Source: Diphasiastrum complanatum (Eukaryota; Streptophyta; Lycopodiopsida; Lycopodiales; Lycopodiaceae). Taken from it: DNA of 64,000 nucleotides. The stretch spans positions 11,407,634-11,471,633 of the forward strand of contig CM055114.1 of the NCBI GenBank assembly GCA_029204225.1, written 5' to 3'. Both the position numbers and the translations under genes were made by a program. This document shows positions 34,966 to 50,210 of this stretch, piece after piece (position 1 is the first letter of the stretch; each line of letters starts with the position of its first letter). The notes under the pieces were generated by a model. It had not been told where the DNA came from. It did no database searches and was given only the letters and a program-made list of their open reading frames with translations.

Positions 34966-35252
34966 TGTTATCCACGCCAAGTCCAACTACTGGCAGCCGG
35001 GCAAACCTCCGACACCCGGAGCCGGAAATAGGAATTCTAATTTCACGTGGTTAATCCACGCCATAGTAAAAATTAAATAAAAAAGGCTCGGCTTTTGCGT
35101 GGATACTGCGTGGATAATTATCCACGCAAAATCCAGAGAGTTGAGGCCGTGGATACCGCGTGGATAAATTTTTTTTTTATATCCACGTGGTATCCAAGCG
35201 AAAAAGTTTTCGGAATTTGCGTGGATTATTCACGCGTGGATAATCCATGCAA
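34966..35252. repeat. left cluster of subterminal palindromic repeats
   Basis: At least eight hits to a GCGTGGATAATCCACGC-like motif, in both orientations and often fused tail to tail, occur within 290 bp. Examples are near 34969 (TTATCCACGCC), 35049, 35097, 35116, 35155, 35178 and 35217-35252. TNPA-type proteins of En/Spm bind multiple subterminal copies of a short motif, and this arrangement is consistent. Confidence 0.8.
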
Positions 35253-36033
35253 AATTTTGTCCAAAAAAAAAAAAATTTGGCGCGAACCAAAATGTGGTTC
35301 GCTCCAAAAATAGAGGTGACTTTCTATTTTTGTGTTGTGTGAGAGAGAAAAAGAGAGTATAAATGGGAGTGAGAATGAGATGAGGATGAATGTGAGTGAG
35401 AAGATTGATAGTGTTTATAGGATTTTTAGTTCGTTGATGGATGTTAATAGTCTGTGTTTTGTGATCATAAGTTTTAAGATCTTTTTTGTTTGTGATGTAG
35501 GTTTGGATATGAAAAATGAGCTTTCATTGCAAAGGATTCAAAGATCAAGTGCATGCAATAGGAAAAGCAAAGATTGCAAAACAATGGAGATACAATAGTA
35601 AAGGCAAATTCACATTTATTTTGATTCATTTGATATTTAGTTGATAACTTAATGTGTTATCTATTTCCATTACTTTTCATTGTGCTTTCCATTACTTTTT
35701 ATTGTGCATTCTAACATGCAAATCATGTGCTAAAATAGATACATTGCATTGAATTCATCAATGAATACATTCGCATTGCATAGATGTGCATTAAATAGAC
35801 TATACATTGCATTGAATACATCAATAGATACATTTGCAATCAATAGATGTGCATTCAATAGACTATACATTTGCATTCTTGGATTAAAAATATATGCATT
35901 CAAAAATTTTGCAAGAATGATGTGATGCCAAAACATTATATTGATTGATTTAAAAACAAGTACTTTGATGAGAGAATCAATTCTCTCTTCCTACATTGCC
36001 TTCTACAAGGCCTTACATTTAGTTTAAGAACCT

Positions 36034-37150
36034 CTACTCATCATCACTTCTTCCCTCCTCGCCTCCTTCATCTTGTAGGTGTACGTTGGTGTCCACATCT
36101 TCAAACTCCTCTTTGCTTTCATTCACGTACTCTTCCACGTTCTCTTTCACATTTTCTTCTACATCACGAACACTTGAAGTTGTAGAGCCTCTCTACAAAA
36201 TAGAATCAAAGATTTAATTAAATTGAGATTAAATTTACTTGTAAACCACAAAGTAAACAATCACAAAACAATAAAGGTTAAGAGTTTACGATTGGAAACA
36301 ATCCATGGGATTCCATAAAAGCCTTAAGGCCGGCATATCCATGATCGTAACCTTGCTTGTACTCCGCGGCGGTCTTGTGTCTTCCAAAATCACTAAGCTA
36401 CATTCAACAAAAAAACATAGTTTAGCAATAAAAAACATTAACAATCTCACTACAAAAATAGAATCATATTAAGAAATATTGCACTTACAAATTGGGCCTC
36501 TAGATTGCCCTTTCCTCCCGATCCCAAGTGACTTTGGCCATGTTTTAAAAGCTTCTCCGCGGCGGCACTACATTGTTGTTCATACTTTTGGGGATTGTTT
36601 TGCAAGAATTCCTCTTTCACCTTCCTCCAATCCCTTTTGGAGCACCATCCAGGCTTCGTGGGATTCTTGGGATTCCTCATGACTCTTGTCATCAATTGCC
36701 TTTTGTTTCGAATCCAAAGGCACATTGTATTCAAGGCCCAAGTCCTACTAAAAGCATTGGATTGAGGGAATTTAGAATACAAAGTCTCTATTATTTTATT
36801 TTTGTCTTCAAGCGATTGGGAGGACCAATCGATCATGTAATCTTTACCAAAATATAAAGCAACTAAATCACGCAAACGAGCATGAACTACATTGCCACGC
36901 GTATTTTTTATAACTCCACCACGTGGATTAAGATCATAATACACACTACACGATTCTTGAGAAGGGGCATCTTCGAAAGCTCTTCTCTCGGATGATTCAC
37001 CTGAAGAAGATAACACAAGATTTTTGATTCTATCTCTTTGTTTAGGAGATAGATTCTCTACTCTTGATTATATTCTTCGGGCTCCTCACGAGCTCTTCTC
37101 TTAGATGGTCTCCCACTTGACCTTCCACTTGACCTAACACTTGAAGACAT
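36034..37150 (-). CDS. Transposase_24-like (Ptta/En/Spm) CACTA accessory protein, 4 exons, intact
   Basis: Exons on the minus strand are 37150-37090, 37000-36489, 36397-36290 and 36192-36034. Introns are GT-AG, and the joined frame is 840 nt (279 residues plus stop) without interruption. The N-terminus is Ser/Arg-rich (PSKRRA). Residues about 60-190 match the plant Ptta/En/Spm transposase family: a W-rich helical block, then WRKVKEEFLQNNPQKYEQQC, a Ser/Ala/Lys stretch and HGQSHLGSGG. Next comes a conserved-looking segment with HKTAAEYKQGYDHGYAGLKA, and a strongly acidic Glu/Asp tail. Relatives are thought to be the TNPA-like DNA-binding partner of TNP2. The first splice (GCTC|GTGAGG to TTCAG|GTGAAT) restores the frame across what otherwise looks like a frameshift. 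The start at 37150 gives the longest spliced frame. Confidence 0.78.
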
Positions 37151-38625: not shown

Positions 38626-39293
38626 TTGATTGGAATTATGAATTCTAGGGAAATTATCGTACCTCCACGTGATTTAGAGAAAGAAAAAAGAATTGAGCTC
38701 TATCACAGAAAAAAGGAGCAATCAAGACGAAAGTACAATGAACAACTATTGACCGGTTCATCTTCAAGCTCTTCCATCAGTCGACGTAGACCGCCTATTG
38801 ATCCATCACATGTATGTATATTGATTTATGTCATAATTTTTTAATTTGTAATAGTGATATAATCCGATTTGCTCTTTGGATATAGTATATTGCTCTTTGG
38901 AAGGCCAAGACACCACTCCATCACAAATGAAGGTTGAAAATGCACTAAATGTACAAAGACTATTTTGTCAATTTTTGTCACATGTTATAATACGTCACAT
39001 GTTAGAATTTGTCAATTTTCACTTGAATGACACTGAAAGAATTTGTGCAATTTGCAATTGGATTATTGGACCAGTTTCAACAAGAATATGATGAGAGGAT
39101 ACCATGTACATGCACACAATGCAAAGGCCTTAGGATTCGGACAAGGAGGATTGTCAACAATCATATTTGGGCCAATGGCAGAAAATCCAAGAGTACGAAA
39201 GGTAAACTCTTTAAAGTGTTTTTCAAAAATGTTTTAATCTTTGACCCTTATGACACTTCAAGTGTAGTTTGGCTAATAAATATTGAGCGATAG
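38626..39293 (+). pseudogene. TNP2 N-terminal region with Transpos_assoc domain
   Basis: A first basic, Ser-rich segment (38626-38844) is followed at 39027-39200 by EFVQFAIGLLDQFQQEYDER, then PCTCTQCKG, RRIVNNHIW. This is the pattern of the Transpos_assoc domain of CACTA TNP2 proteins (acidic helix, CPC-x-C-x2-C-like cysteines, then V-x2-H). The usual CPC is CTC here. The pieces are in different frames, so unrecognised introns or frameshifts separate them. No intact start is assigned. Confidence 0.6.

Positions 39294-39455: not shown

Positions 39456-39519
<64 letters not shown>
39456..39519. repeat. (GA)n microsatellite
   Basis: An uninterrupted GA tract of about 32 units lies between the Transpos_assoc and SET-like segments. 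Confidence 0.97.

Positions 39520-39863: not shown

Positions 39864-39895
<32 letters not shown>
39864..39895. repeat. (GA)n microsatellite
   Basis: About 16 GA units lie 30 bp upstream of the acceptor-like site of the SET-like exon. Confidence 0.97.
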
Positions 39896-39926: not shown

Positions 39927-40944
39927 AAGAAGGACCATAAGTTGGTTTCAAGAAAAAGAGTTGCAAGAGAGATTGAGAATATTATTGATAGGATAAATCA
40001 CATGAATATTGATTTTGGATCATCATTGGCCCTAGATGATGCTCTTGTTGATGATGACCCCTTGTATGATATAATTAGTTCATCAATGCCTTGTGATTCA
40101 ATCCATGTCTCCAAATTTCTAGAACGTTCTTATCACCCAACCACACCTATCCTAGATGTTGCACATGAGTCCTCCACGATACTCCACGTGGATTCCACAA
40201 ACTTGACCACCCCTTTAAAAAAAAGAACACGTCTTAGACGTATTATGACTAGTTTGAAAGATAATTGCAAATTACTACGCACTGTTGATGTGTCAAAAGA
40301 CATTCTAGGTTCTTTGTGTGACCTTCCTCTTCCACCTAGCTTGCAACCATTAGTAAAAACTCTTATTAGAAGTAGATATTCGTGTTGGCCACTCCAATCA
40401 CCATTACCATTAAATGGGACACCATTTACGTATTGGGGTCGAATGTACATGATCATGCCTAGTGAACACTTTCCTGAGGCTAGTTTGGGCCTTTTTACTT
40501 TGAGTAGTATTGAGGTCCCTTTAAATAGTGTTGTGACATTGATGCCATATGTAGGACCTCAATACAATTGGGGTGATTGGCATGCTTTGTGTCGTCACCA
40601 ATGGAGAATGCAACTTGAATTCAAATGCTTGTTCTTTAGAGGAGCAACGCATGCAAGGAGGCAACATCTCAAGGGCAAATTGTACATACATTGATGGACG
40701 TCCAAATGTGCATGGAAACATTGCTGCATATATAAATAGTTCCATTGGCCACCCTCTATTGACGAATTGTGATTTTGAAGAACACACCAATGGAAAAGAA
40801 GAATATTTTACTAGGAATGTAAAGGGCACTTATGTAATGGTTTGTGCCACTAGATCTATCAGGTTTGGGGAGGAATTATTCATCAAGTATAGTTTCAACC
40901 GTCCTCTACCCAAATGTTTGCAAAAGACAATAAGTCAAATGTGA
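39927..40944 (+). pseudogene. SET-domain (histone methyltransferase-like) sequence within the CACTA gene series
   Basis: An exon-like frame opens after TTTTGTAG at 39927, with a basic helical start (KKDHKLVSRKRVAREIE). The SET start is seen at about 40480-40570 (LGLFTLSSIEV...VTLMPYVG, as in G-x-GLF...I...G-x-x-V...Y-x-G). After a frameshift between about 40573 and 40670 the second half follows: YIDGRPNVHGNIAAYINSS, then TNCDFEE, then KGTYVMVCATRSIRFGEELF and IKY. These are the GN-x-A-x-[FY]INHS, NC and GEEL...Y elements of SET domains. The canonical NHS is NSS, so cofactor and substrate binding may be altered. With the frameshift, the copy is probably inactive unless an unseen intron repairs it. 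I cannot assign the methyltransferase subfamily. Confidence 0.62.
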
Positions 40945-41142: not shown

Positions 41143-41262
41143 ATGTTCATACTTTTTAAACTAAGAGGTAATTTATATTCATATGCAACATTTAGATCTA
41201 TCAAGTATTGGGAGGAAATATTTATCAAGCATTGTTTCAACCTACTTCTTGTTATTTTGATA
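41143..41262 (+). pseudogene. second, degenerate copy of the SET C-terminal segment
   Basis: LYSYATFRSIKYWEEIFIKH aligns with TYVMVCATRSIRFGEELFIKY of the upstream SET segment. At DNA level AGATCTATCA, GGGAGGAAAT and TCAAGCATTGTTTCAACC match with scattered changes. The spacing is about 315 bp, so a piece of the captured domain was duplicated in tandem and then decayed. Confidence 0.65.
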
Positions 41263-41267
41263 TATAG

Positions 41268-42311
41268 GATTCTTCATCCTCATTTAGTGTTGGAGACAAT
41301 AATCTTCGTAATGGTCGACGTAGACGACGAATGCAATACAACGGTCCACATATAAAGCAATTACCTCGTCGTCTACGTCAAGGCTTAAAAGAGATGATGA
41401 AAATTGATGAGCGCATTAATCAAGAGACTAATACATCTGAATCTAGCTCATCTAGATCTACTTCTTCGCAAACAGGTTCCAACGATGAAAATGAGCTTCC
41501 AATGAATGATGAATTTGAAGTCATGGGAGACATTTTGGATGATATGTACGAGAACAATATTGCAGCTAGACACAATGAACAAGATGAGGAGGCACTTTTG
41601 TCTAAAGAAGAAAGAAAATTGCGAGAAGAATCAAAGACCGCACTGTATCCTGGAGCAAAGACATCTCGTTTGGCGACTTCTCTACTTCTATTAAATCTTC
41701 AAGCCAAATATAGATGGAGTGACCAAAGCCTCACATCATTATTTGAGTAATTTTTTTTTCATTTACTTGTCATTTTTGCTTTGAAACAAAATTTACAATT
41801 TGGACATCGAGTAATATTTTTTTTACAATGACTTCTTTTGTCATGTACAAACTATTGAAAAACAAAATTCTCCCAGAAAGGGAATGTCATGCTTGACTCC
41901 AAGAGATGAGGCACAAAAGATGTTGACTAACATCGGGATGGACTACAAGCAATATCATGCATGTCCAAAAGATTGTATTTTATATCGAGGAAGGTACGAA
42001 TCACTCAAGAAATGTTCCATTTGTGATACTCCTCGATATAGAGATGATTTGCAAGGGCAACCATTCCGTGCAAAGTTTTACGACATTTTTCAATAATTCC
42101 ACAATTGCAACGTTTATTTCGTTGTAAATTTCTTGCACAACTTATGGACTGGCATGCACACCATACCTCTACGGATGGGATGATGAGGGTACCTTCAGCT
42201 CCAGCTGCATGGAAACACATCAACAAAGAGTATCCAAGCTTTGCCAATGAGTCAAGAAATGTGAGATTTGGTCTTGCAATAGATGGTGTGAATCCCTTTG
42301 ATTATTTATGA
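41268..42311 (+). pseudogene. CACTA TNP2 transposase, N-terminal half
   Basis: The first exon-like frame (41268-41746) has a basic start (RRRRR), an acidic Ser-rich stretch, then LLSKEERKLREESKTALYPG and a LLNLQAKYRWSDQSLTSLFE block, as in TNP2. An intron 41747-41876 (GA|GTAATT to CTCCCAG|A) joins it in frame to KMLTNIGMDYKQYHACPKDC and ILYRGRYESLKKCSICDTPR. A one-base shift near 42080 precedes LQRLFRCKFLAQLMDWHAHH, DGMMRVPSAPAAWKH and NVRFGLAIDGVNPFDYL, where a stop ends it. These are the conserved N-terminal TNP2 blocks. The central catalytic part and DUF4218 that should follow are deleted. Confidence 0.85.
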
Positions 42312-42340
42312 GATTCATGTTTGTCATGTGGTAGTGCAAA

Positions 42341-42995
42341 ATGTATAATGCTACAGCTTTTGGTTTTCACTTTCGTGTTGAAAGGATTGATGACAAGAGA
42401 CGCACATACAATTGTGATGTAATAGCATCTTTCCAACAAGAAAGTCAAAGCAGTGCACGAGATCAGAATCCCATCTCAGGAGATATAGAATACATAGGAA
42501 CTATACAAAATATTTATGATGTGTCATTTGGTGAAAGTGGACACTATTTTTTATTTGATGTGAAATGCTTCAAGGTAGTTTGTAGAGTGCCAAATGCAAC
42601 CGTAAAATCGGATCCAAGTGGATTTTTTGCTATTGATTCATCAAAAACATTGAGCATGGAGTCCTTTGACACATTGGTGTTGCCTCGTCACTGTGAGCAG
42701 GTGCACATGCTATGCTATAATGTTTTTCATTTTATTGCAAATGACTTCAGTATTTGAGTTTTAGATATGTTCTAAAATAGTGATTTTTGCAGGTGTTTTT
42801 TCAACCAGATCGACTAAACAAGATATGGTGGTTTGTAGCTCAAGTTGAACCATGTTCACGACGAGTATTTGGGGTGCAAATGTTGAGAATGAAATGGAAA
42901 ACCTTCATTTTAACTATGAGATTGAGCTACCTAGAGATGTAATAAATCGTCAAACCATATTTGAAGCACCCACTTCCATAGATGTTGAGAATTGA
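42341..42995 (+). pseudogene. DUF4216 domain, C-terminal part of the CACTA transposase gene
   Basis: The segment starts NATAFGFHFRVERIDDKRRT, then DQNPISGDIEYIGTIQNIYD and HYFLFDVKCFKV, matching the DUF4216 module found at the end of many TNP2 genes. A GT-AG intron (42701-42792) joins LPRHCEQ to VFFQPDRLNKIWWFVAQVEP. A frameshift near 42870 shifts into ENLHFNYEIELPRDV, ending at a stop at 42993. The domain directly abuts the truncated TNP2 N-terminal half, so an internal deletion joined them. Confidence 0.8.
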
Positions 42996-43279: not shown

Positions 43280-43765
43280 ATGTACGGCTTCATGTTCCAA
43301 GAAAATTCTCATTTTTTAACAAATGCTGCAAAGGCAATAAATCACTAAAAGCATGTGAGTTAATGAAATCACCACCACAAACTTTGACAAAATCAAGTGT
43401 TTCATCATAGTTAATCCCCTTGAATTGAGCATATCCCTTGGCAACTAGTCTTGTTTTATAATTGTTCACACTACCATCTTGATTAAGCTTGATCTTAAAG
43501 ACCCATTTGCAAATAGTAACATTTTGTATCTTTGATGGAGGATCGATAATTTTACAAGTATCTCAAACAATGCATCATGTACTCATCTCACTTTTCATTA
43601 CATCAAATCACTCTTTTGTTGCTACAGTTTCATTCACACTTGAAGGAACATCATCAAACTTAAGGTAGTAATAAGGGCAATAAAAATTAAACAATCATCA
43701 ACTTGTAATTGCTTTTCTCTTCCTTGTATTTGAGCCTTGATGGTTGCATTTGGGCTTTGATACCA
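43280..43765 (-). pseudogene. deleted copia element F: RT N-terminus and primer-binding site
   Basis: On the minus strand, after the PBS, the sequence reads DDVPSSVNETVATKE, then CKWVFKIKLNQDGSVNNYKT and RLVAKGYAQFKGINYDETL. This is the N-terminal RT block of copia pol, followed by a decayed stretch. Because the RT starts only about 100 bp from the PBS, gag, protease and integrase were deleted. The fragment interrupts the CACTA region between DUF4216 and its right repeat cluster. Confidence 0.85.
43754..43765 (-). promoter_or_regulatory. primer-binding site of element F
   Basis: The minus strand reads TGGTATCAAAGC, directly after an LTR terminus TTTTAACA. The LTR itself extends from 43766 to an undefined point near 44.2 kb. 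Confidence 0.75.
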
Positions 43766-44540: not shown

Positions 44541-44893
44541 TGCGTGGATAATCCACGCAGAAGATATTCACGTGTGGATATCTTTAAGTCCGGTGAACAA
44601 ACTGAAACTTACATGGATCATCCACGCGTGGATTATCCACGTCAAAACTGCTTTTCGACATCACCAACTTTTCCTCCCAAACAGTTGCCGGAATTTTCTA
44701 AATTCAATTTTGCGTGGATTATCTACGCGCATAAATTTTTCGGCGCCGTGTCAGAAAAACACTGGTAACTGGCCGGAGGCGTGTTCAAAATTTTTTTGGC
44801 ATGGATAATCCACGCGTGGATGTTCCACGCAAACAAAATTTTGGAAAATCGACTAAATGTCGAGTCTCGTGTGGATACTTTGCATGGATAAAC
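44541..44893. repeat. right cluster of subterminal palindromic repeats
   Basis: About ten GTGGATAATCCACG-like hits lie in both orientations: near 44541 (GCGTGGATAATCCACGC), 44569, 44611-44642, 44711, 44800-44830 and 44871-44890. It mirrors the left cluster at 34966-35252, and both ends show a TTATCCAYGC-AAGT segment in inverted orientation. Confidence 0.8.
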
Positions 44894-44905
44894 ACAGAGT
44901 TTTCT

Positions 44906-45741
44906 AGTTGTGCATACACACAACATCGAGTGCTTTCTAAACAAGATGAGAAGAATTGCTTTAAACATCAACTGTGTCTTCACATTAATTTTAAAGTAAA
45001 ACAAAAATGTACATAAGTAGTGGCTGCGAGCTCAAAGAAGATTCGCCCAACTATTTAAAATTTAGAGAGAGAGTGATCGTAAAAGAGATGGTAAGTAATT
45101 GTGAAAGAAACGGTTAATTATTGCTTTTTTAACTCTCTCCCTCAATAATTAAGGTTTACAAAACTATGAACAAGAACCTATTCATGGAACTTGCCTCCAT
45201 TATAGCATAGTTACTTGCAATTTAATTTTTTTGAAATATCCGACTTCCACGTGAACGATCCACGACCCCGGTTGTTTGACATTTGTTCCTTTTGACAGGG
45301 ATCCAATGGATAAATTATCTGTCATACTTCGACAACGTTTTCGTTTTCCACTCTCATGCAGCCATTTTTCTACATACTTTTGGTTGCAGGATAGAGCGCA
45401 ACCTGAGAGCATTTTGTGAAGAATTGCCAAAAATTGGCAAATCTAGCTTGATCAAAAACCATGTAGAACTTTGTAAATATTGTGTATAATTGGGTTCCAC
45501 ACATGTTAGCATTTAATTATGTTCGAGACATGGTTTTCCAATCTGAAAAAGCAATATTATAACCGAAATATAGATTACAAATTGCATAATAACTTTTGTC
45601 AGAGTGCGCTTTGAAATGTTGTATCGTCGTCTTGTTCGTCTTGATCAAATCCGGGATCGGAATAGAAAATAGTTTATGAAAGTGTTTCAAAAATCCTGCA
45701 AATTTGAAATATGTTATAAAAATAATATGATTTTCATATGT
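44906..45741. other. non-coding stretch
   Basis: It holds short open frames on both strands without recognisable domains. A single isolated CACGTGAACGATCCACG segment near 45250 recalls the CACTA motif but is not part of a cluster. Confidence 0.4.
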
Positions 45742-48659: not shown

Positions 48660-50210
48660 TGAGTTTCAGTACTATGCTCCAGCAGATCCCATCTTACTAG
48701 TGACTTCTAGAAACAAGAAATAGATTTGATTGAACTTGAAACTCACAAAGGTCTCACACTTGCAGTGTTTCACTCAAATTTGATTTCTAATCCAACAAAT
48801 GGACTTATAATCATAGTTTTATCACTCCCTCACAAAGCTGGAATGAAGATAGTGAAAACTACTTTCAAACAAATCTTGCCAAGAAATGGATTTGATTGTC
48901 TCTAGAAACTCACCAAGGTCTCTCTCTTGTAGTGTTTCACTCAAATTAGATTTCCAATCCAACAAATGGACTTATAATCTCAGTTCTAGCACTTCCTCAC
49001 AAAGTTGGAATGAAGATAAGATGATGTGAAATCTACTTACAATCAAATCTTGCCAATTTTGGCTATTGTTGGACAAAAAAATGACTTAATCTCTTTCACA
49101 CTTTTTGATGTACTTTCAAGAACTGTAAAACAAGTTTAGAGGACCTGATTTCAGCCTAGATTAATTAGATATCATGACCCTATGTCAAATCTAATCAATG
49201 GCACTCAATCTTGGTAGCTTATCCTAAGATTTCCACCAAAAATTACATCAAAAACTCACAAATTGAATTTCTTTGGATCAAATGAATACCATGCATTAAA
49301 TGCAAGTTCAGAGGTGCCCACACATGTGGATAGTACGGATTTGGATCCCTACCAAGTTTGGGATCAAATCTTCTCACAAAAATCAAGATTCTAGCTTGCC
49401 CTCTCAATACTAGTTTTTAGCACCAAAACTTGCTAAAAATGGATTTGCATTAGATCAATGGCTTATGCTCTTGTACTTGGATCTGATACCATGTGAAAGT
49501 ACTGTACTTTAGGACCATAAATGGATCTACAAAATATCCACAAGAGTGATTGGATGCTTGCTTAACAATCTATCAAAAAACTAGACACAAAAAAGTTGAT
49601 CTAGATTGGCAATTTGACAAACAACAAGCATTAACAATCAAAAGACTTGATCAACATTGAAATCTAAGCCCAAAAGTGTGTAATACAGACTGTAGTACGG
49701 CCTTCAACCTGAGAAACAAGTAGAAAATGATTTGGTTTCATTTGGATCACAAAAACTCAATGTACATAGTGAACTAGCTTGAGATTGCCAATGAGCTCCA
49801 AAAATTTTCTATCTTCTCAATATGGGAGCTTGGAATACATAGCAAAGTCGACCTCCTTCTTGAAGTTAGGTGGATTTCTAGCATGTAATAAGGAAGTTAA
49901 CTCACACTTCTTGTCCTAAAATGAAACCCTAGCCTAGATCCTAGAGTTATGCTTGGTAGGTAGCTAGTTGGTCAAATTTTCACCTTAAACTTAGGTGTAG
50001 GTCCTATAAAGTAGGGATGACCACCAAATAGACATGACCAACTCTCTTGACTTGACCTAACCTATATTAGGAGTGGGTTGCCACGTGTCATCTAAACACA
50101 GATTTAGGGAGACTTCTTGGCCATCTCTCAGACATTGGAGTTTGACTGACAGACGGTCCTATCACGATTGAAAACGTTCTGAAAATCTTAGAACAAGAAA
50201 CTACCAACAC
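48660..50210 (-). mobile_element. LTR retroelement fragment G (LTR, PBS and leader only)
   Basis: The minus strand reads an LTR terminus CTTTCACA at 49499-49492, then a Met-tRNA-like PBS (TGGTATCAGATCC, 49491-49479), then an ~800-nt leader with the tandem duplication. No gag or pol follows; the Helitron sequence starts at about 48650. The LTR starts at 49492 on the plus strand; its outer end was not found. Confidence 0.6.
48720..49065. repeat. ~165-bp tandem duplication in a retroelement leader
   Basis: Two adjacent copies (about 48725-48885 and 48890-49062) share GATTTGATTG, GAAACTCAC-AAGGTCTC, GTGTTTCACTCAAATT, CCAACAAATGGACTTATAAT and TCACAAAG-TGGAATGAAGATA. Confidence 0.85.

Follow-up and report, generated by a model that had tools for sequence, protein, structure and literature searches.

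Does the SET domain that lies between the transposase modules of a CACTA element in the genome of Diphasiastrum complanatum belong to that element, and what would it do there? SET domains are enzymes of a type that places chemical marks on proteins, for example on histones; CACTA elements capture host fragments, and plants silence transposons largely via histone and DNA methylation. The stretch that raises the question, called the window here, comprises 64,000 nucleotides of contig CM055114.1, from position 11,407,634 to 11,471,633, and a first-pass annotation made from its sequence had proposed that a CACTA lineage captured or fused a SET domain. Our best explanation, to which as a whole we give a probability of roughly 70%, is that the window contains a CACTA (EnSpm) element in decay, from a group in which SET is a long-retained accessory gene.

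The annotation had placed a frameshifted SET domain at 39927-40944 on the plus strand, between Transpos_assoc and TNP2, and this is confirmed. When both reading frames were searched against profiles in a Pfam scan of the window, the second matched PF00856 with 29 bits (E 1.5e-6, profile positions 46-104), where the curated cut-off is 22.4 bits, and the first, which holds the N-terminal half, gave no Pfam SET score alone. That half (GLF...PYVGP) was recognised by alignment with two further lineages described below (D and E), whose SET matches cover nearly the full length of the profile. The frameshift corresponds to an 8-base gap relative to the intact copy L019, and bridging it gave 28 bits over profile positions 43-104. 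The window copy also has Ser in place of the first Gly of the GxG motif. No Pfam match to Pre-SET or post-SET was obtained in the SET ORFs scanned; these segments are dispensable in some SET classes. A sequence search of the PDB returned no match for the window SET fragment or for a profile of 14 copies, and a single-sequence structure prediction of the window SET domain (mean pLDDT 28.9) was set aside. In 18 of the 21 lineage-A copies (the lineage of the window copy), the last part of the SET coding sequence recurs as a 50-bp duplicate past the SET stop, ahead of the next exon. Directly before the SET exon acceptor the window has GA-repeat tracts (39456-39519 and 39864-39895); long GA tracts precede this acceptor in other copies as well, e.g., L019, and the lineage E copy (L056) has a CT tract downstream of SET.

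The features of the element in the window are listed in Table 1. Its Transpos_assoc domain (PF13963) scored 25.5 bits against a cut-off of 27.7, which the same domain in L019 just exceeds. The Pfam order in L019, all on one strand, is Transpos_assoc (27.8 bits), SET (28.4 bits), Transposase_21 (82.1, 69.6 and 27.3 bits in successive ORFs, the last just below the cut-off of 28.6) and DUF4218 (46.6 bits). The first-pass annotation was right that the TNP2 blocks lie on the strand of SET, but the sequence at 41.3 kb, where it had put them, is the preceding exon, and the TNP2 match starts near 42174. The L019 copy of that preceding exon, used as a query, gave at least 150 scored matches and 3381 first-look candidates in the genome. 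Relative to L009, L010, L015 and L019, the window lacks 2.0-2.1 kb at 42299/42300, and this deletion is why its TNP2 match is confined to the first 43 profile positions. The last exon beyond the deletion presumably resembles DUF4216, a label that found no support in Pfam.

The right end of the element was located through the shared ends of similarity among copies: similarity stops at, or no more than 3 bases from, CACAACTAGAAAAC in the window, L015, L018 and L019, and in inverted orientation in L011, with flanks that differ, and L026 has the terminus with two mismatches. This single terminus is of the CAC...GTG type and reads CACAA, not CACTA. A scan of the window for CACTA/TAGTG pairing yielded no convincing pair of terminal repeats, and a left terminus was not found in the window or in four extended loci, nor was a target-site duplication, for which both ends are needed; in the window, resemblance to an inverted L015 segment breaks off near 34968. 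Subterminal repeats of a CACTA-like kind are present, in the form of GCGTGGATTATCCACGC-type repeats at 35.0-35.3, 37.5 and 44.5-44.9 kb. The window copy is broken in both SET and TNP2, and it may be without its left end. The minus-strand ORF at 36450-37067, which matched no Pfam family above cut-off, could encode a second element protein. Inside the element, 43290-43562 on the minus strand is a fragment of a copia-type reverse transcriptase (RVT_2, 37 bits) with a matching ORF in L019, so that an old nested insertion may have amplified with the element. A stretch of 595 bp (49489-50082) shares 95% identity with L032 sequence, upstream of L022, which assigns that stretch to a different repeat family.

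Table 1. Features of the CACTA copy in the window (positions of the window; a slash marks the predicted splice junction)
Feature	Position	Strand	Remarks
Left subterminal-type repeats	34968..35271		GCGTGGATTATCCACGC-type
Minus-strand ORF, 205 aa	36450..37067	-	Common to other copies (L015, L019), near left end
Transpos_assoc ORF	39027..39293	+	Profile match 39033-39185; splice-donor-like GTAAAC at 39202
SET exon start	TTTTGTAG/AAGAAG	+	Acceptor-like; SET ORF, first frame
SET ORF, first frame	39927..40694	+	N-terminal SET half, upstream of frameshift
SET ORF, second frame	40555..40944	+	C-terminal SET half, match 40675-40890; terminates in stop codon
50-bp duplicate of SET coding end (40851-40900)	41193..41242	+	86% identical
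First transposase-gene exon past SET	41268..41750	+	ORF; no significant Pfam match of its own
TNP2 (Transposase_21) start	42048..42311	+	PF02992, 49.7 bits, profile positions 1-43
C-terminal transposase-gene exon beyond deletion	42335..42757	+	No Pfam match
Right subterminal region	44542..44898		GCGTGGATTATCCACGC-type repeats
Right terminus	44899..44912	+	14-mer CACAACTAGAAAAC on minus strand

A search of the genome (1.74 Gb in 5176 contigs) with the first SET frame gave at least 149 scored matches, including the window, at 84-100% identity, and 3075 loose first-look candidates; many of the scored matches lie in an open SET exon of about 347 aa, and some are on short contigs that possibly duplicate chromosome copies. 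We compared 20 lineage-A loci of 9-10 kb each, a non-random sample picked mostly for long open frames, and all 20 align with the window around SET. On the strand of SET, 17 of the 20 have Transpos_assoc upstream; downstream, 17 have the next transposase exon and 16 have TNP2. Across all 41 SET-positive loci, the window included, the corresponding counts are 21, 33 and 21, many of these loci being only 1.5-3 kb long and too short to reach TNP2. Starting from the transposase, at least 24 of the 150 TNP2 matches listed have a listed SET match on their own strand 0.5-8 kb upstream (within 3 kb for 22 of them), whereas the controls gave 1 upstream when the strand was opposite and, downstream, 1 for the same and 3 for the opposite strand; because the match lists behind this count held 146, 149, 150, and 150 of 180 matches, 24 of 150 is a lower bound and no measure of how many TNP2 copies are SET-less. 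Thus, many other CACTA copies carry SET at the same place, and the suspicion of an independent insertion is not borne out. Chance resemblance, or a separate insertion of SET into the CACTA copy of the window, is refuted, since SET and its flanks are common to genome copies as one unit and the Pfam scores exceed the cut-off. SET and TNP2 matches are clustered in large numbers at C1:48.5-50.3 Mb, where the four loci examined (L041, L047, L048 and L054) belong to lineage C; the cluster may be a nest of SET-bearing elements or pericentromere.

Beyond lineage A, 20 further PF00856 matches were examined, and 18 of them match the SET exon; the other two (L035 and L038) do not and may be host genes. 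Identity to the SET exon is 51-74% over the longest alignments for lineages B and C and 30-32% for lineage D. There are six CACTA lineages, A to F, with a SET ORF upstream of the transposase exons and SET identities of 34-83%, lineages E and F being represented by one copy each. The PF00856 scores are 28.4 bits for A, 33.9 and 30.7 for B, 33.9 for C, 37.2 for D and 21.5 for E, the last just below the cut-off, and the matches of A, B and C fall for the most part in the profile's second half. In lineages D (L036 with its extension L055) and E (L056), transposase exons come after SET and share its strand; lineage D gave 23.9 bits for Transpos_assoc (below the cut-off of 27.7), 37.2 for SET and 107.1 for TNP2. 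Lineage F was found at L057, upstream of the TNP2 match C10:40830790, with 44% SET identity over 286 aa, in a region that had been chosen blind, as a TNP2 match without a listed SET, to seek a SET-less element. Three such regions upstream of TNP2 matches were inspected: L057 has SET, L058 was uninformative, and L059 shows no SET match between its Transpos_assoc-like and transposase-exon sequence. At least one CACTA copy, be it a lineage of its own or a single deleted copy, is thus SET-less, and SET is not universal among CACTA elements.

In a comparison of few sequences and short alignments, lineages D and E are 49% identical in SET and 63% in the exons before TNP2, compared with 34-36% in SET against A, B, C and F and 39-41% before TNP2 against A and F; for A against F the values are 64% in SET and 44% in the exon before TNP2. 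Both regions pair D with E, a pattern that fits inheritance of SET along with the transposase. A profile of lineages A to E matched six host SET domains, which we take to be SUVH-like, with an E value of 8.7e-5 and a probability of 60% over 60 columns in the C-terminal half.

If SET were a piece of a host gene picked up by a CACTA element and hitch-hiking without function, its sequence should bear no trace of selection, and within lineages this is what is seen. Across the SET exon of 21 lineage-A copies, the ratio of nonsynonymous to synonymous changes is 247/86 = 2.9, against a neutral expectation of 2.9, suggesting that copies decay freely after insertion, and dN/dS within lineages is 0.76-1.80 (nine pairs). 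Between lineages the picture differs: in comparisons of some 190-229 codons, dN/dS falls to 0.17-0.23 for A-B, where dS is near saturation, to 0.19-0.29 for A-C, and to 0.20-0.34 for B-C, where dS is unsaturated at 0.43-0.57. For L019 and L046 (A-B), the pN/pS of 0.30 lies below every one of 300 neutral simulations (mean 0.82, minimum 0.51). The adjacent transposase exon has an A-B dN/dS of 0.40-0.47 (three pairs), higher than that of SET. Comparisons with lineage D (0.36-0.66) have high dS and uncertain alignment and were not relied on. Nucleotide similarity between A and C spans the SET ORF, breaks off some 17 bases short of its stop codon and reappears close to the next exon; for A-B and B-C it continues beyond the stop and is there not confined to the ORF, so that this comparison gives a mixed picture.

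The SET ORF was thus a selected gene in the lines leading to A, B and C, the three lineages for which purifying selection is seen. Although host-fragment capture by CACTA elements is known and the changes within lineage A are neutral, the values among A, B and C, the lower A-B ratio of SET than of the neighbouring exon and the occurrence of SET in six lineages strongly disfavour a hitch-hiking fragment, which we regard as very improbable. SET is almost certainly a retained gene of the element, and that a CACTA lineage captured SET, as first proposed, is supported by its same place in many copies, by the six lineages and by the selection among A, B and C. A gene that evolution has kept working suggests that the transposons use it.

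As for what that use might be, the SET protein is most likely a lysine methyltransferase that would act on chromatin or on transposition proteins. SET enzymes with non-histone targets exist, and SET is encoded here together with the transposase; an active methylase directed at the transposase or another non-histone protein, and not at chromatin, seems quite unlikely, although nothing specific speaks against it.

The reading frames bear on whether SET is a protein in its own right or a domain within the transposase. In 19 of the 21 lineage-A copies the acceptor region of the SET exon could be located (AG kept in 17 of the 19), in 17 of the 21, the window among them, the donor region of Transpos_assoc (GT retained by 16 of the 17), and in 18 of the 21 the acceptor of the next transposase exon, ATATAG/GATTCT (AG kept in 17 of the 18); lineages B, C and E have AG sites at the start of the SET exon too. 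Judged from the ORFs, all three junctions are in phase 0 in L019. The SET ORF closes with an in-frame stop in lineages A to E, and by eye no good donor precedes that stop. With an acceptor-like start and a stop at its end, the ORF reads as an alternative last exon. En/Spm yields two proteins through alternative splicing, so that such an exon for SET would be in character, and the gene model makes SET probably a separate product of an alternative last exon.

A single fused Transpos_assoc-SET-TNP2 transposase, with SET as an internal domain, would account for the common strand and order, for a GT that adjoins the SET stop codon in lineages A, B and C, and for the A-B and B-C similarity that runs on past the stop. 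That GT, however, is in phase 2, which would put the next exon of L019 out of its coding frame, and it is absent from lineages D and E; the in-frame stop in A to E and the break in A-C similarity around the stop also argue against fusion, which we consider unlikely. Of the first proposal, capture stands, and SET as a domain inside the transposase gives way to a separate product as the more likely reading of the ORFs.

The catalytic site bears on a further alternative. The first-pass annotation had listed NSS in place of the N-H-S motif among the defects of the window copy; NSS is indeed present there, but intact copies share it. All 14 intact lineage-A copies have the two Ser residues and 13 of the 14 the motif Asn; the ORFs of lineages B, C and D read NSS in 17 of 18 and TSS in 1 of 18, with NHS in none; lineages E and F read NSS. 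The His of the motif was in no copy examined from any lineage seen. Judged across these copies, NSS is a conserved trait of the family and not decay of the window copy. In an alignment of nine sequences from lineages A to E, GxGL, the Asn, the two Ser, a T-N pair and the final Tyr are invariant. GxG is the cofactor motif and the final Tyr is catalytic; the NHS His is important to many SET enzymes, and SET domains of the PR type do without it, at least one of them being active. A nonenzymatic binding or decoy module would be consistent with the lack of the His in the 18 ORFs of lineages B to D and the 14 intact copies of A, but a pure binding module need not keep the other cofactor and catalytic positions, which are invariant, and the active PR-type example points the same way. 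We regard such a module as somewhat unlikely, and the odds lean slightly towards a catalytically active SET protein.

A retained and separately encoded SET protein could operate as follows. The transcript would begin at or before the Transpos_assoc exon. Joining of the phase-0 Transpos_assoc donor to the phase-0 SET acceptor would give a Transpos_assoc-SET protein terminated by the SET stop codon, and joining of the same donor to the phase-0 acceptor of the transposase exon would skip SET and give the transposase. The SET protein would be an active lysine methyltransferase, with GxG, the motif Asn and the final Tyr kept and Ser in place of His. It would probably work on the chromatin of the element, recruited through the shared N-terminal module or the transposase, and could serve to resist silencing or to ready the ends for transposition. 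That it acts on the chromatin of its own element is a tentative proposal. The scheme in full, in which an ancient plant CACTA group would encode a chromatin writer, a spliced Transpos_assoc-SET protein with an N-S-S site that marks its own chromatin to escape silencing and has been retained by selection (seen in lineages A to C) through at least six lineages, one of them with at least 149 scored copies, is possible but rather doubtful as a whole.

The elements resemble known CACTA/EnSpm (Transposase_21/TNP2) transposons in the order of Transpos_assoc, TNP2 and DUF4218 on one strand, in their subterminal repeats and in a terminus of the CAC...GTG type; unlike those, they have a SET gene between Transpos_assoc and TNP2, and the terminus reads CACAA. 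We found no prior report of a SET gene in CACTA elements in the literature, judged mostly by titles and the openings of abstracts, and an earlier description is possible. Transposon-borne SET genes as such are already known, and what is new here is their presence in CACTA elements, in many copies and under measured selection. Phytophthora infestans is the host of one such element, proto-Helentron-Pi. A passage of the report on it describes a separate SET ORF, as here, in what is, unlike CACTA, a rolling-circle element whose SET is Clr4-like (PMC4067079). HarbingerS and MuDR elements of Phytophthora are stated, in a section of another report, to contain SET histone methyltransferase genes (PMC12730594); they too are DNA transposons with a SET gene, but of other superfamilies and in oomycete hosts, and the acquisition of SET in CACTA is presumed to have been independent of theirs. 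SETMAR, in which SET likewise adjoins a transposase, is described in part of a further source as a host gene that arose by fusion of a SET gene with a mariner transposase, and is not carried by mobile elements (PMC8616336). In plants, Vandal elements, which belong to the MuDR group, code for anti-silencing proteins according to passages of two of these reports (PMC12730594, PMC8616336). VANC21 of VANDAL21 is, in the section concerned, a gene of a plant DNA transposon directed against its own silencing, as is proposed for the CACTA SET, and differs in promoting DNA hypomethylation (PMC8616336). The existence of the Vandal proteins makes an anti-silencing role of the CACTA SET plausible. To our knowledge, VANC21 is not a SET protein.

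A CACTA group in which purifying selection has preserved SET is a direct candidate for a self-interested writer of chromatin marks. It offers a testable system for conflict between transposon and host at the level of chromatin, with natural intact, decayed and SET-less copies to compare. Counts of plant SET genes may take in genes of transposons. The elements may use SET to sway the very chromatin that normally silences them.
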